A stretch of 34,499 bases of DNA. Source: Planctomycetota bacterium. GTDB taxonomy: Bacteria > Planctomycetota > UBA1135 > GCA-002686595. The translations under genes and the position numbers were made by a program. Where the stretch lies: contig SMVQ01000059.1 in the NCBI GenBank assembly GCA_004357655.1, forward strand, positions 1 through 34,499, read 5' to 3'. This document shows, piece after piece, positions 6,617 through 34,067 of the stretch. The notes under the pieces are model-generated. The model had not been told where the DNA came from, did no database searches, and saw only the letters and a program-made list of their open reading frames with translations. Each line of letters begins with the position of its first letter. Within the stretch, counting starts at the first letter, position 1.

Positions 6617-7819
6617 TCATTCGGGGAATCCGCTCGTGACCGGTGGCAGACTTCGGGTTCGGGCGCCAGGCGCGGCGGGCAGGATCTCGTCGCCGCCCGT
6701 GTAGACGCGTTCCACGCGCTTGCCGAAGGAGCACAGGAGCTCGTGCGGGATCGTTCCCGCGCGGCGAGCGACGTCGGCGAGTCGCAGCTCGTCCTGTCCG
6801 TCGCGTCCGATGAGGATCGCTGTGTCGCCGACGCAGACGCCTGGCACGCGCCCGATGTCGACCGTCGTGTAGTCCATCGAGACGCGCCCGACGATCGGCG
6901 CGCGACGGCCGCGGAGGAGCACCTCCCCGCTCCCGGAGAGCGACCACGGCACCCCGTCCGCGTAGCCCACGGAGAGCGTCGCGATGCGCGTCGGTCGCGG
7001 CGCGCGCCAGGTGGCGTCGTAGCCCACGGGCGTACCCGCCGGAACGTCCTTCAGGAACACGACCTGGCTCGCGAGCGTCACGACCGGCCTCAACTCCGCC
7101 GCCCGGGCGAGATGCCCGGGGAGCGTCCCGTACGCGGCGATACCCGGGCGCACCATGTCGTAGGGCCAGGCACGCGGGCCGCGGACACCGGAGAAGATCG
7201 CGCACGAGTTCGCGACGTGGACCGAGCCGGGCAAGATCCCACGCGCGCGCGCCGCCGCCAGGAGCTCGTCGAAGGCCAGCGCCTGTTCGAATGTCGCCTC
7301 GTCGGACGCCCCGTGCGGGGCTGCGACGTGCGTCATGATCCCTGCCAGCGCAAGGTTGCGCGAGGCGTGTATCTCCTCCAGGAGCCCCACCGCGCGCGAG
7401 GGCAGCACGCCCAATCGGCCCATGCCGGTGTCCACGTTCAAATGCACGTTGGCGACGGTCCCCATCGCCATCGCGAGCGCCTGCAGCGACGCCCTGCGGT
7501 CGGCGGAGTGCAAGCCGATGTGAATGCCATGACTCAAGCAGTCCGCGAGCTCGTTCTCGATCACTGTGCCGAGGACGAGGACGGGGAGCCGGATCCCCGC
7601 CCCCTGCAGCTCCAGAGCTTCGCGGGAGGTGCCGACTCCGAGGGCGGACACACCGCAGCGCGCGGCGTGCCGAGCGATCGTCACTGCACCGAGTCCGTAG
7701 GCGTCCGCCTTGACGACCAGCATCACACGGACGCCGGGACCCGCGCGACGCCGGATGGCGGCGAGGTTGTGCGTCAGCGCATCGAGGTCGATCTCCACCC
7801 AAGCACGAAAGTCGCTCAC
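6617..7819 (-). CDS. alr: alanine racemase
   Basis: A 400-residue PLP enzyme that interconverts L- and D-alanine for peptidoglycan. The PLP lysine is in VVKADAYG (Lys37). HLNVDTGMGRLG, the VRPGIAAYG strand and LSVGYADG are all family hallmarks. The second catalytic base, tyrosine, is present in VGYDATW. RVSMDYTTVDI matches the substrate-loop GRVSMD motif. The start is a GTG at 7817-7819. A TATCTT box ends exactly six bases upstream of it, so the message may be leaderless. The last 20 or so residues (rich in Pro, Arg and Ser) extend beyond the usual family end. It is the first gene of the alr-asmA-manC-ruvX run and is divergent from the histone-fold gene. Confidence 0.95.
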   Translation of the reverse strand: MSDFRAWVEIDLDALTHNLAAIRRRAGPGVRVMLVVKADAYGLGAVTIARHAARCGVSALGVGTSREALELQGAGIRLPVLVLGTVIENELADCLSHGIHIGLHSADRRASLQALAMAMGTVANVHLNVDTGMGRLGVLPSRAVGLLEEIHASRNLALAGIMTHVAAPHGASDEATFEQALAFDELLAAARARGILPGSVHVANSCAIFSGVRGPRAWPYDMVRPGIAAYGTLPGHLARAAELRPVVTLASQVVFLKDVPAGTPVGYDATWRAPRPTRIATLSVGYADGVPWSLSGSGEVLLRGRRAPIVGRVSMDYTTVDIGRVPGVCVGDTAILIGRDGQDELRLADVARRAGTIPHELLCSFGKRVERVYTGGDEILPAAPGARTRSLPPVTSGFPE

Positions 7820-7922: not shown

Positions 7923-7951
7923 TTGACAACCATGCGACGCGCGGACATTGT
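7923..7951 (+). promoter_or_regulatory. putative sigma70-type promoter of the histone-fold gene
   Basis: A perfect TTGACA (7923-7928) is followed by a 17-base spacer and a weak -10, CATTGT (7946-7951). The predicted leader of about 85 bases contains a six-base-pair hairpin (7965-7970 with 7976-7981, loop TCAGT) and a strong Shine-Dalgarno run, gggaggagg, at 8023-8031. The -35 match is exact in a very GC-rich background, which makes chance less likely. The -10 is poor. Confidence 0.5.
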
Positions 7952-8042
7952 GGCTCCCGCATCCCGGAGTTCAGTACTCCGAACCCCGTACGCGGAGGTC
8001 CGGAGGACACATCCCCCGCATCCGGGAGGAGGCAAGACCACC

Positions 8043-8285
8043 ATGGCGAAGAAAAAGGCCCGCACCGGAGCCAGGCCCGCCACCCGCAGGACGACCGCCA
8101 AGAAGCGCAGGAAGACGAACGGCGACCTGATCATCAGCAAGAACCGCGCGAAGAACGCCGTGACGATCAACGTCTCCGGTGATTTCTACCAAGCGCTCGA
8201 TGAGGCGGTCCGCGCCATGATCGCGGAGGCAGAGCAACGCGCCGTCAGCAACAACCGGCGCACCCTGCGGCCGCACGACCTGTAG
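8043..8285 (+). CDS. bacterial histone-fold DNA-binding protein with basic N-terminal tail
   Basis: An 80-residue, strongly basic protein. Residues 1-25 form a Lys/Arg/Thr/Ala tail with repeated KK, RR and KKRRK clusters. Residues 27-40 (GDLIISKNRAKNAV) look like a short first helix. Residues 43-70 (VSGDFYQALDEAV then RAMIAEAEQRAVSNN) match the long central histone helix. NRRTLRPHDL at the end corresponds to the RkT(I/L)..eDi loop-and-third-helix signature of archaeal histones and of the small bacterial histones such as Bdellovibrio Bd0055. The protein stops right after that motif, so the third helix is truncated. It likely binds DNA as a dimer. The ATG at 8043 is set by the gggaggagg ribosome binding site 11 bases upstream. 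It has its own promoter and is monocistronic: a long inverted repeat follows, then the convergent tsaB. Fold assignment is by motif reading, without a search. Confidence 0.75.
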   Translation: MAKKKARTGARPATRRTTAKKRRKTNGDLIISKNRAKNAVTINVSGDFYQALDEAVRAMIAEAEQRAVSNNRRTLRPHDL

Positions 8286-8307
8286 GCCCTTCCCTCCCCT
8301 TCCTCTC

Positions 8308-8396
8308 CTCACCCCTCCGTTCCTGCGCTCCTTCCAGCCGGAAGCAGACGAGCCAGGAAGGCCGGGACGGAAGGAGCGCAGGAACGGAGGGGTGAG
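8308..8396. repeat. perfect 28-bp inverted repeat between convergent genes
   Basis: The left arm 8308-8335 and right arm 8369-8396 are exact reverse complements over 28 bases, separated by a 33-base loop. The element fills most of the gap between the ends of the histone-fold gene (8285) and tsaB (8402), starting 23 bases after one stop and ending 6 bases from the other. There is no U-tract, so it is not a classical intrinsic terminator. It could act as a two-way transcript end or 3' stabiliser, or be a mobile palindrome. Its arms do not share sequence with the other two long palindromes in the window. Confidence 0.85.
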
Positions 8397-8401
8397 CAGT
8401 C

Positions 8402-9055
8402 TCAGCGCTTGCGCTCCCGCACGGCGAAGGGCCGCAGGTACAGGGGCTGGATTTCTTCGGGCTGCATCGGGCCTCGGGCGTGGAGGCGGCGGGTGCCCAG
8501 CTCCAGCAGGTGGGCGGCGGTCGGCTCGATGTCCGTTCGCAGCCGACGGCGCGTGGCGGGGGAGAGTTGTGCGGCGTCGGCGACGGTCTCATCACCGAGG
8601 ATAGTGGTCTCTGGAGCGAGCAGGGTCGCAAGTTCCGCCGCGGTCGTGACGCGCGGGGCGTCGCGGACTTCGACGTCGTGCGCGGTGCGACGATAGCGCG
8701 CGTAGTAGAGCTGTCGGCTCCGTGCATCGAGGAGGACGACGGCTTCGCCACCGGGCTCGAGTGCGGCGTAGGGCATCGTCTCGATCGATGGCAGACCGAA
8801 GAGGAGCGCGCCCGTTCCACGCATGAGGCCGAAGGCCGTCGCGATGCCGACGCGCAGGCCTGTGAAGCTGCCTGGGCCCGTGCCGACGATGACCGCTCGG
8901 ATGCCGGCGGGCTCCGATCCGGCCTCCGCGAGGAGTGCTTCGAGCCGCGGGAGCAGGTCGCGATCGTGTTCGAGCGCGGCGGAGAACAGACCGCTCGCCG
9001 TACTCACCGCGACCGAACCGGGGCGTACCGAGGTCTCGATCGCGACGGTCGTCAC
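8402..9055 (-). CDS. tsaB: tRNA threonylcarbamoyladenosine biosynthesis protein TsaB
   Basis: A 217-residue TsaB-type ASKHA-fold protein. It partners TsaD in t6A modification of ANN-decoding tRNAs. Signature regions are the N-terminal strand TTVAIETS and the hallmark GTGPGSFTGLRVGIATA (about residues 68-84). A GLPSIETM stretch and the LLDARSRQLYYARYR strand also match the family. The start is GTG at 9053-9055, overlapping the glmM stop as GTGA, which indicates translational coupling. It is the last gene of the nine-gene minus-strand run. No other t6A genes are in view. Confidence 0.9.
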   Translation of the reverse strand: MTTVAIETSVRPGSVAVSTASGLFSAALEHDRDLLPRLEALLAEAGSEPAGIRAVIVGTGPGSFTGLRVGIATAFGLMRGTGALLFGLPSIETMPYAALEPGGEAVVLLDARSRQLYYARYRRTAHDVEVRDAPRVTTAAELATLLAPETTILGDETVADAAQLSPATRRRLRTDIEPTAAHLLELGTRRLHARGPMQPEEIQPLYLRPFAVRERKR

Positions 9056-10395
9056 CCGATCTCTTCCGCGATGCAGTTCGCCAGCTCCTCGGCCTGCGCC
9101 TGGATGTGCGCGAGGTCCAGACCCTCCACCATCACGCGCGCCAGGGGCTCGGTACCCGAGTACCGCAGGAGCACGCGTCCGTCGGAGCCGAGGTCCGCCT
9201 CGATGCGCTTCACGACTTCGGCGGTGCGCGGGAGCTGGCTGAGGCTCGGCTTCCGTTCGACTCGCACGTTCAGGAGCACTTGCGGCATGGGTTGGTAGGG
9301 CGCGGCGAGCTGGGACAGGGTCTGACCGGTATCGCGCATCACGCGCAAGACGCGCAAGGCGGTGAAGATGCCGTCGCCGATGTGGTCGTTGTCGCTGCCG
9401 AGCACGATGTGTCCCGACTGCTCGCCGCCCAGGCTCAGGTTCTCCCGCCGGAGGCACTCGACGACCTGGCGGTCACCGACGCCGACTTCGACCACCTCGA
9501 TCCCCGCCGCACGCAGGGCACGGTGCAGCCCCCGGTTGCTCATGACCGTCGCGACGATTCGGGGATCGCGGAGCTCCCCGCGCGCCATCGCATGGAGCGC
9601 CAGGACGGTCATGATCCCGTCGCCGTGCACGAGCTCCCCGCGCTCGTCGACCAGCACGCATCGATCGCCGTCGCCGTCGAGTGCGATCCCGATCTCCGCA
9701 CCGCGCGAGCGGACTTCGCGTTGCAGCGCCTGGGGCTGCGTCGAACCGCAGTCGCGGTTGATGTTGTCCCCATCCGGCTCCACGCCGATCGCGTGTACCT
9801 GAGCTCCGAGACGGCCGAAGACCCGCGGCGCCACTCGGCTGCCGCCGCCGTTCGCGCAGTCGAGCGCGAGGACCATGCCGCCGAGCATGAGCCCTTCGCC
9901 GGCGGTGGACAGGAGGTGGCCGAGGTAGGCCAGCTCCAGCTCGGGGTCCATGGGCAGGCGCCCGATGGACTTCGGCGGCTCCTCGTCGTCAGCGCGCAGC
10001 ACGCGCTCGATCTCGTCCTCCACCGCGTCGGAGAGCTTCTCGCCTTCGCTGGAGAGCACCTTGATCCCGTTGTCCTCGGCGGGATTGTGCGAAGCGCTGA
10101 TCATCACGCCGAGCCGGAAGTCCTGGGCGAGCGCGAGCCATGCCAGCCCGGGGGTCGTCATGAGGCCGGCACTCTTCGGCAACAGCCCGGCAGCCTGCAA
10201 GCCCGCTCCCATCGCCGACTCGAGCTCCGGCCCGGAGTGCCGGCCGTCGTGCCCGAGGAGGGCCGCGCACTCTTCGCCTGAACCCATCACGCGGCCGATG
10301 GCGCGCCCGAGCCGCGCCACCTTCTCGGGTGTGAGCCAGCCCTCGCCCGCGCGGCCGCGAATCCCGTCCGTGCCGAAGATGCGGCCCTCGGTCAA
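9052..10395 (-). CDS. glmM: phosphoglucosamine mutase
   Basis: A 447-residue alpha-D-phosphohexomutase that converts glucosamine-6-phosphate to glucosamine-1-phosphate on the way to UDP-GlcNAc, and hence peptidoglycan and LPS. RIFGTDGIRG is at the N-terminus and the phosphoserine loop ISASHNP is at about residues 98-104. The metal site DGDGDRC lies at about 238 and the phosphate-binding RYSGTEP at about 409. Order and length match GlmM rather than phosphomannomutase. The start codon is TTG (10393-10395), directly abutting the TAG stop of the upstream diadenylate cyclase gene, so the two are surely co-translated. In Firmicutes, GlmM binds and inhibits CdaA; the same neighbourhood here suggests a similar link. 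Confidence 0.95.
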   Translation of the reverse strand: MTEGRIFGTDGIRGRAGEGWLTPEKVARLGRAIGRVMGSGEECAALLGHDGRHSGPELESAMGAGLQAAGLLPKSAGLMTTPGLAWLALAQDFRLGVMISASHNPAEDNGIKVLSSEGEKLSDAVEDEIERVLRADDEEPPKSIGRLPMDPELELAYLGHLLSTAGEGLMLGGMVLALDCANGGGSRVAPRVFGRLGAQVHAIGVEPDGDNINRDCGSTQPQALQREVRSRGAEIGIALDGDGDRCVLVDERGELVHGDGIMTVLALHAMARGELRDPRIVATVMSNRGLHRALRAAGIEVVEVGVGDRQVVECLRRENLSLGGEQSGHIVLGSDNDHIGDGIFTALRVLRVMRDTGQTLSQLAAPYQPMPQVLLNVRVERKPSLSQLPRTAEVVKRIEADLGSDGRVLLRYSGTEPLARVMVEGLDLAHIQAQAEELANCIAEEIG

Positions 10396-32505: not shown

Positions 32506-32699
32506 GACGCACGTCGGTCCTCGCAACCCGCCATTCCCCCAAGCCCTTGGCTGGAAAGGAATTGAATCGCTCGATCGGCTCGTCTCGGGCCCCGGTTCCA
32601 GAATTCGCGTCCGGAGCGAGACTCGGGCGGCGCGTCAGGTCCGTCGAGCGGGTTGGCCGCCCGACGATTCACCTGGACCCGATCCGCACCGGAGTTCCC

Positions 32700-34067
32700 A
32701 TGACCCTACCGAGGATTCGTCGCGCCGCCTTCCCGTTCCTCCTGCTCGGCTTCGCCACGAGCGTGGCAGCAGCTCAGACAACCGGCAGTGCGACCTCGGC
32801 GCCACCTGGTACGCCCGTGGCCGGGCTCGCGTTCTGCCCTGACGCGCTCTCCGATCAGGCCGGCTCAGCCACTTGTATCGGCGCCTCGTCGATGCCGACG
32901 CTCGGGTCGCTCTACCCTCTCGGTCTCGACCTCAACGTCGACCTTTCGGGCAACGTGGGCGTAGGGACGCTGGCGCCCCAATCGCGTCTCCACGTCGCGG
33001 GTGATCTCACCGTCGACGGTGGCGTGGCGTTCGGCAACAACACCGGTGTATCGAGCGCGGCTGTGATCTTCGACATCTCCCACCGCATGACCGATTTCAG
33101 CGGCAACTCGGATTGGCGCGCGCGGTACTCCTACATCGAGGTCGACCCGACGATCGACCTGACGGGACCCGACCAGAAGTTCGTGTGGGGGAGCATGGAG
33201 CTCGCCCTGGTCCCGAGCACGAACTCGCGCAACATCCGTTACCTGGTGGGCGCCTATCACGGCGCCGGGACGTTCGGGTCGGGGAACATCGAGTTCATGG
33301 CGGGCTCGGGTATCGGGGCCACGGCGCTCGGGACATCCACTCTGGACGAGCAACGCGGCGCCTTCATCACCTCGGACGTGCGTGAATCGGCGACCGTTCA
33401 GGACAACCGCACCCTCGACCTGCTGGGGGGTCACGACGGGGTGGCGGGCGAGATCGTCGCCAATCACGGGCTCTACGTGCGGAGCCCCAATGCCGCGCGC
33501 CCGCTCCAGAACCACTACGGGGTCTTCCTCGAGGACCAGGACTTCGGCCAGAACGACAGCTTCGCGGTCTACTCCGAGGGCGGGACCGTCTACTTCGCCG
33601 GCGACGTGGGCATCGGCACGAGCGCGCCCGCGTACAAGCTGCAGGTCGGCGAGGCCGGCGACGGCACCGAGGCGCGCGCCAACGCCTGGAACCTCCTGAG
33701 CTCGCGCGAGTACAAGCGCGACATCCGGCCCCTCGACGCCGCCGAGCGCGCCGCGGTCCTGGCCGCGATCGTGGACACCGACGTGGTGCACTACACCTAC
33801 GCCGGCGACCCGGACGCGGAGGAGCACATCGGCGTGATCGCCGAGGACAGCCCCGAGGAGATCTTGAGCAAGGACCGCGGCGCCGTGAGCCTCGGCGACT
33901 GGTCGGCGTTCCTCATGGCCGGCATGCAGGCCCAGCAGACCGAGATCGAGGAGCTGCGCCGCGAGCTCGGCCTGGCAGCCAGACAGGACCAAAGGCGCGA
34001 GATCGACGCACTGCGATCCGAGCTCGACGCGATGCGTGCGGCCCTCGCGCGCTTGGAGCAACGGTGA
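32700..34067 (+). CDS. exported protein with tail-fibre-like repeats and C-terminal S74 chaperone domain
   Basis: 455 residues. The signal peptide (LPRIRRAAFPFLLLGFATSVAAAQ, cut at about 25) is followed by the VGIGT..P...LHVAG fold typical of fibre proteins: NVGVGTLAPQSRLHVAGDLTV and, later, DVGIGTSAPAYKLQVGEAGDG. A glycine-rich, beta-rich middle comes between them. The intramolecular chaperone (peptidase S74, endosialidase type) begins at SSREYKRDIRPLD (about 332), continues with DVVHYTYAGDPDAEEHIGVIAED, and is followed by a heptad coiled coil (about 405-455). Such chaperones trimerise fibres and cleave themselves. GGAG five bases before the ATG at 32700 fixes the start. It is likely a trimeric surface or secreted fibre; its target is unknown. 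Confidence 0.85.
   Translation: MTLPRIRRAAFPFLLLGFATSVAAAQTTGSATSAPPGTPVAGLAFCPDALSDQAGSATCIGASSMPTLGSLYPLGLDLNVDLSGNVGVGTLAPQSRLHVAGDLTVDGGVAFGNNTGVSSAAVIFDISHRMTDFSGNSDWRARYSYIEVDPTIDLTGPDQKFVWGSMELALVPSTNSRNIRYLVGAYHGAGTFGSGNIEFMAGSGIGATALGTSTLDEQRGAFITSDVRESATVQDNRTLDLLGGHDGVAGEIVANHGLYVRSPNAARPLQNHYGVFLEDQDFGQNDSFAVYSEGGTVYFAGDVGIGTSAPAYKLQVGEAGDGTEARANAWNLLSSREYKRDIRPLDAAERAAVLAAIVDTDVVHYTYAGDPDAEEHIGVIAEDSPEEILSKDRGAVSLGDWSAFLMAGMQAQQTEIEELRRELGLAARQDQRREIDALRSELDAMRAALARLEQR

Follow-up and report, generated by a model that had tools for sequence, protein, structure and literature searches.

A compact bacterial protein in which a histone-like core follows a long basic tail raises the question to which kind of histone it belongs and which role it may play in a lineage that also contains HU. 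The gene lies in a window of 34,499 nucleotides (the whole stretch of DNA that was analyzed), contig SMVQ01000059.1 of a Planctomycetota bacterium. A sequence-only reading of this window had described an ORF, a basic tail, a histone-like core and a short C-terminus, each of which was found where claimed. Of its overall interpretation, homology to histones, a basic tail, a truncated α3 (the third helix) and a strong promoter are supported by comparison, but not the Bdellovibrio type as the nearest relative. Judged by its residues, the protein is a face-to-face (FtF) α3 histone and not a tailed histone of the Bdellovibrio type. FtF histones in Planctomycetota and basic tails on bacterial FtF histones are already published, and the protein adds a good and conserved case to an established kind of DNA-packaging protein without founding a new one. 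New here are its distribution in the class (124/154 genomes), the antiparallel setting at tsaB/alr, the conserved promoter, clean losses of the gene, and a tailed HU-like protein.

The Gene, Its Neighbors and Its Promoter

The product of the ORF on the + strand is MAKKKARTGARPATRRTTAKKRRKTNGDLIISKNRAKNAVTINVSGDFYQALDEAVRAMIAEAEQRAVSNNRRTLRPHDL, and the gene is accompanied by the following features:

8043..8285, + strand: FtF-type histone gene, 80 aa, ATG to TAG, homologs in 124/154 genomes of the class
8027..8032, + strand: AGGAGG ribosome binding site, 10 nt 5' of the ATG
7923..7951, + strand: promoter TTGACA-N17-CATTGT, conserved among relatives as TTGACA-N17-CATTCT
6617..7819, − strand: alr (alanine racemase), conserved neighbor
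8402..9127, − strand: tsaB-like gene (TsaD fold), convergent conserved neighbor, start approximate
8305..8399, no strand: inverted repeat, 31 nt, 97% complementary, 33-nt loop, filling the convergent gap between the histone gene and tsaB

An upstream in-frame GTG start, which would give an ORF of 141 aa, was rejected because the proteins of the relatives and the AGGAGG, the strong ribosome binding site that had been read here, indicate the ATG at 8043. The gene is present once in the source assembly (4.45 Mb, 78% complete). The same genome contains nine genes with a PSD1 domain, which was absent from all 14 control genomes and is indicative of Planctomycetota.

Homologs were found in 46 of 61 genomes in a search of close relatives and in 124 of the 154 genomes of the class, covering 72/87 genera, and more distant ones occur in 112/294 genomes sampled from the phylum. 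When the core is compared between pairs of homologs, codon positions 1, 2 and 3 differ by 0.24, 0.21 and 0.52 per site, a divergence pattern from which we conclude that purifying selection acts on the core. Most loci of relatives that reach far enough show the same order, glmM-tsaB-[histone, opposite strand]-alr. The inverted repeat between the histone gene and tsaB, which lacks a T-run, is probably a two-way terminator; short and weak partial copies of it lie on other contigs of the genome, and a repeat of this length was not seen at the equivalent place in relatives. Scans of viral contigs and phages for the histone returned zero matches, and there is thus no sign of a viral origin. One relative (G008) contains a second histone copy (L035:2755-3234, − strand) with a C-terminal extension of ~80 residues in which no domain was recognised.

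The perfect TTGACA box pointed out in the sequence-only reading is present at 7923-7928, and taken alone it is unremarkable, as the window contains two against 3.7 expected. Upstream of the homologs, TTGACA-N17-CATTCT is perfect in 14/47 cases and matches at ≥11/12 positions in 19, compared with 0/940 shuffles, a test that is partly circular since the same sequences supplied the consensus, although the margin is wide. In 6/6 relatives, picked for a perfect pair at the histone gene, that gene is the single place in the genome with the exact hexamer pair; the pair is absent from the source genome, where the −10 is one base off. A sigma-70 promoter scan of the window returned no consensus pair, which is no evidence of absence because the scanner demands 4/6 matches in the −10 and hence misses CATTGT. 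Two further elements recur, namely an A-run located upstream by ~30 nt and, ~8 nt past the −10 and close to the expected start, a stretch resembling GCGTCAC. Conservation of the pair in relatives supports the strong promoter that had been proposed, and high expression of the histone is plausible from these signals.

Assignment to the Face-to-Face Histones

Searches with the single protein were of limited reach: Pfam and NCBIfam returned chance-level matches only (secretin, lipoate ligase), none of which passes the cut-off, the PDB search was borderline (HLp, 9qt0, E 0.005; HTkC, 9f2c, E 0.009), and a scan of the collected genome contigs yielded a Halovenus protein as sole match. A profile comparison with histones, proposed along with the sequence-only reading, was carried out with the family of 46 homologs and found the FtF histones HTkC (9f2c, 2.7e-9) and HLp (9qt0, 1e-6), with HBb (8cmp) at 0.35. 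Comparison with haloarchaeal FtF-type proteins by hhalign gave a probability of 99.3% and an E of 4.8e-20 over 53 columns. The parts of the protein that carry this assignment are:

8121..8282, + strand: histone-fold core, residues 27-80 (54 residues), aligned over its full length with haloarchaeal FtF-type histones, which lack a tail
8238..8279, + strand: FtF signature R66, N70, R72, T74 and D79, invariant in 46 sequences
8139..8153, + strand: α1 lysines K33 and K37, both invariant in 46 sequences

FtF histones form the second largest prokaryotic histone group, a class defined from a predicted tetramer, and their profile contains R, N, R, T and D at positions 48, 52, 54, 56 and 61 (PMC11390915). 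The five signature residues have exactly the published spacing. In D4GZE0 of H. volcanii the signature comprises R41, N45, R47, T49 and D54 (PMC11390915), and the Halovenus protein, which carries the residues at identical numbers, has them aligned to R66/N70/R72/T74/D79. By their published equivalents, R66/N70 would make dimer-dimer contacts, R72/D79 would form the RD clamp, and T74 would be a DNA contact in L2. K37 aligns, with a one-residue alignment gap, to K11 of the haloarchaeal FtF histones (D4GZE0; logo position 16), a proposed DNA contact (PMC11390915). In HLp, the dimer-dimer contact is made by R49, N53 and R55 (PMC12701072); bacterial-dimer histones are reported to be without the R/N pair (R48/N52). 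As the FtF residues are invariant and align with the D4GZE0 type and with HLp, we place the protein among the FtF histones rather than beside the Bdellovibrio type. The truncated third helix that had been noticed is supported by these comparisons; a one-turn or truncated α3 is normal among FtF histones (PMC12701072).

HLp, the FtF histone of Leptospira perolatii (PDB 9QT0-9QT2), resembles the protein in its core length, RD clamp, bacterial origin and the tetramer residues R-x3-N-x-R (R49/N53/R55, here R66/N70/R72), and probably also in its one-turn α3, but comprises 63 aa and is without the long tail; moreover, Leptospira is without HU (PMC12701072), whereas the lineage studied here contains HU and the histone. 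The best named matches are haloarchaeal FtF histones (HVO_0196/D4GZE0 type and plasmid copies), with 45-52% over the core among the best-ranked matches. These are archaeal and, unlike the planctomycete protein, tail-less (54-55 aa), with an α1 start one residue shorter. The matching plasmid proteins are annotated as DUF1931 or DNA-binding, and in Halobacteria FtF histones are found both on the chromosome and on plasmids (PMC11390915). HTkC, the FtF histone of Thermococcus kodakarensis (PDB 9F2C), is the top profile match among solved structures (2.7e-9), but it is tail-less, archaeal and coexists with nucleosomal histones. The Bdellovibrio dimer HBb/Bd0055 has a short α3, the RD clamp and a compact size in common with the protein, but lacks the FtF R/N pair and a tail. 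The comparison with the Bdellovibrio type made in the sequence-only reading thus gives way to HLp, HTkC and the haloarchaeal histones as the nearest relatives.

Two further assignments were rejected. A DUF1931 pseudodimer histone does not agree with a single fold in 80 aa, and the Pfam model DUF1931 matches weakly, in 10/46 members with a best E of 0.004. A tailed nucleosomal histone of the eukaryotic or Asgard kind is contradicted by the truncated α3 and by core-histone matches with E ~0.3 or worse; among the matches listed, most begin within the part of the profile that covers the tail. An AlphaFold monomer, based on a two-row alignment with the Halovenus protein, predicts helices at residues 26-38, 44-74 and 77-79, which is the histone layout, although the model is weak (pLDDT 69, pTM 0.31-0.36). 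Full-length and core-only monomers were both weak, and Foldseek found no match with either of them.

The Basic Tail and the Proposed Role

8043..8120, + strand: N-terminal basic tail, residues 1-26, with 12 K/R and 0 D/E

The Lys/Arg-rich stretch described ahead of the core is thus present with 26 residues and without acidic residues, and the pI is 8.5 for the core and 11.6 for the whole protein. Haloarchaeal histones start with M-(A/S/T)-D-L-I, aligned to D28-L29-I30, and therefore begin where the tail stops, so that the tail is an N-terminal extension ahead of α1. A K-rich tail is present in 46/46 aligned homologs, with a length of 11-56 aa and a median of about half Lys/Arg; the tail survey covered 47 sequences, i.e., the 46 members and the second copy L035, and all tails together contain four acidic residues, nearly all tails having none. 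According to published work, bacterial FtF histones commonly carry basic tails (PMC11390915), so that the tail seen here is what one would expect in this group. The proposed likeness to a eukaryotic histone tail applies to composition but not to the tail sequence, which is unconserved even inside the family. By composition, the tail resembles lysine-rich H1-like sequence as much as core-histone tails, and chlamydial HC2/H1-like lysine-rich proteins, which are without a histone fold, have a comparable Lys/Ala-rich basic composition.

Taken as a whole, these observations are in our view best explained by a tailed FtF histone tetramer that acts as a chromosomal architectural protein, a reading which we regard as highly probable. 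HLp is reported to be tetrameric and to wrap DNA (PMC12701072), and by analogy with HLp, HTkC and the haloarchaeal histones two copies would form a histone-fold dimer, and two dimers would join face to face via R66/N70 against R72 and the C-terminus, giving a ring-shaped tetramer with a positive rim. DNA of ~50-60 bp would bend or wrap round this rim, with the α1 lysines and loops L1 and L2 holding it in place. From the N-terminal ends of α1, the four basic tails may project and bind the same or neighboring DNA non-specifically, which would add compaction, and the strong conserved promoter would provide for expression, possibly to high abundance. As HU is present too, the main part in packaging need not fall to the histone.

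The alternatives differ in which part of the protein would do the work. A histone of the HBb/Bd0055 type to which a tail was added would bend DNA as a dimer without forming a tetramer, and the short α3, the R-x-T motif, the bacterial origin and the weak profile match of HBb (E 0.35) are in line with it; however, R66/N70, reported missing in bacterial dimers, are invariant in 46/46 sequences, and with the family profile HTkC scores ~eight and HLp ~five orders of magnitude better than HBb, which makes this a distinctly improbable reading. Slightly more room, although still little, is left for a protein that is mainly an H1/HC2-like polycation, in which the tail condenses DNA and the small domain only dimerizes without wrapping. 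The KKA/KKAT-like repeats of the tails, the conservation of tail composition rather than sequence, and the fact that the chlamydial, H1-like Pfam model HC2 touches two of the 46 members (best E 4e-4) speak for it. Yet conservation is far stronger in the core, including the DNA-contact residues K33, K37, R72 and T74, than in the tail, which in some members measures no more than 11-16 residues; an outright assignment as an HC2/H1-like nucleoprotein was rejected on the conserved core with its FtF homology and on the small number of members matched by HC2.

In GC-rich DNA (70%), with numerous spurious ORFs overlapping the site, it has to be considered whether the ORF arose by chance or was mis-called, or whether its product is a helical protein other than a histone. 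Homologs in 72/87 genera, the same synteny, selection visible in the codon positions and the matches to solved structures argue against both, leaving them almost no probability, and the chance-ORF reading is refuted by the number of genera, the conserved synteny and the purifying selection. HLp is the only bacterial FtF histone found with a solved structure and was studied in a short form. The planctomycete-type clade described here is large, and the majority of its genomes, among them some assembled in one or two contigs, contain a clearly tailed histone, which offers natural material on the function of histone tails in bacteria. Planctomycete nucleoids (Gemmata) were described as unusually condensed, with unexplained bead-like particles (PMC3440768).

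Loss of the Histone and a Tailed HU-Like Protein

In the 12 histone-lacking relatives examined, alr is intact, and tsaB directly adjoins alr wherever the tsaB match reaches the junction, leaving no room for a gene. These clean junctions indicate that the absences are not assembly gaps, and the losses provide matched genomes without the histone. HU is present in 60/61 genomes of the close relatives, and many histone-lacking genomes encode an additional, conserved protein of the HU fold whose N-terminus bears a short basic tail (alignment A6; L101-L107). Of the 30 genomes of the class that lack the histone, ten of which were identified as such by inference, partly from the close-relatives search, 19 have a match to this tailed HU-like protein, vs 4/124 histone-bearing ones, the four being mostly weaker matches. 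The two distributions differ with a Fisher p of ~4e-13, uncorrected for kinship. In a single-gene alr tree several changes of histone state are needed, at least two of them forced by supported branches, and a kinship-corrected pair test of the histone/HU exchange was underpowered, with two supported pairs.

It is possible that the tailed HU-like protein replaced the histone in some lineages, and we regard this as a lead. The wider proposal, in which the tailed FtF histone would be a principal chromatin protein of the class, would have a promoter pair that is unique in the genomes tested and would be functionally interchangeable with an unrelated tailed HU-fold protein in lineages that lost it, is tentative and in our judgment rather unlikely; if true, it would mean that chromatin built on a histone has been exchanged in nature for chromatin built on HU.

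Elsewhere in the window, an ORF at 32547-34067 (+ strand) encodes a protein whose C-terminal part (LLSSREYKRDIRPLDAAERAAV...) resembles an intramolecular chaperone (S74-like) tail-fiber domain, here presumably on a secreted protein.
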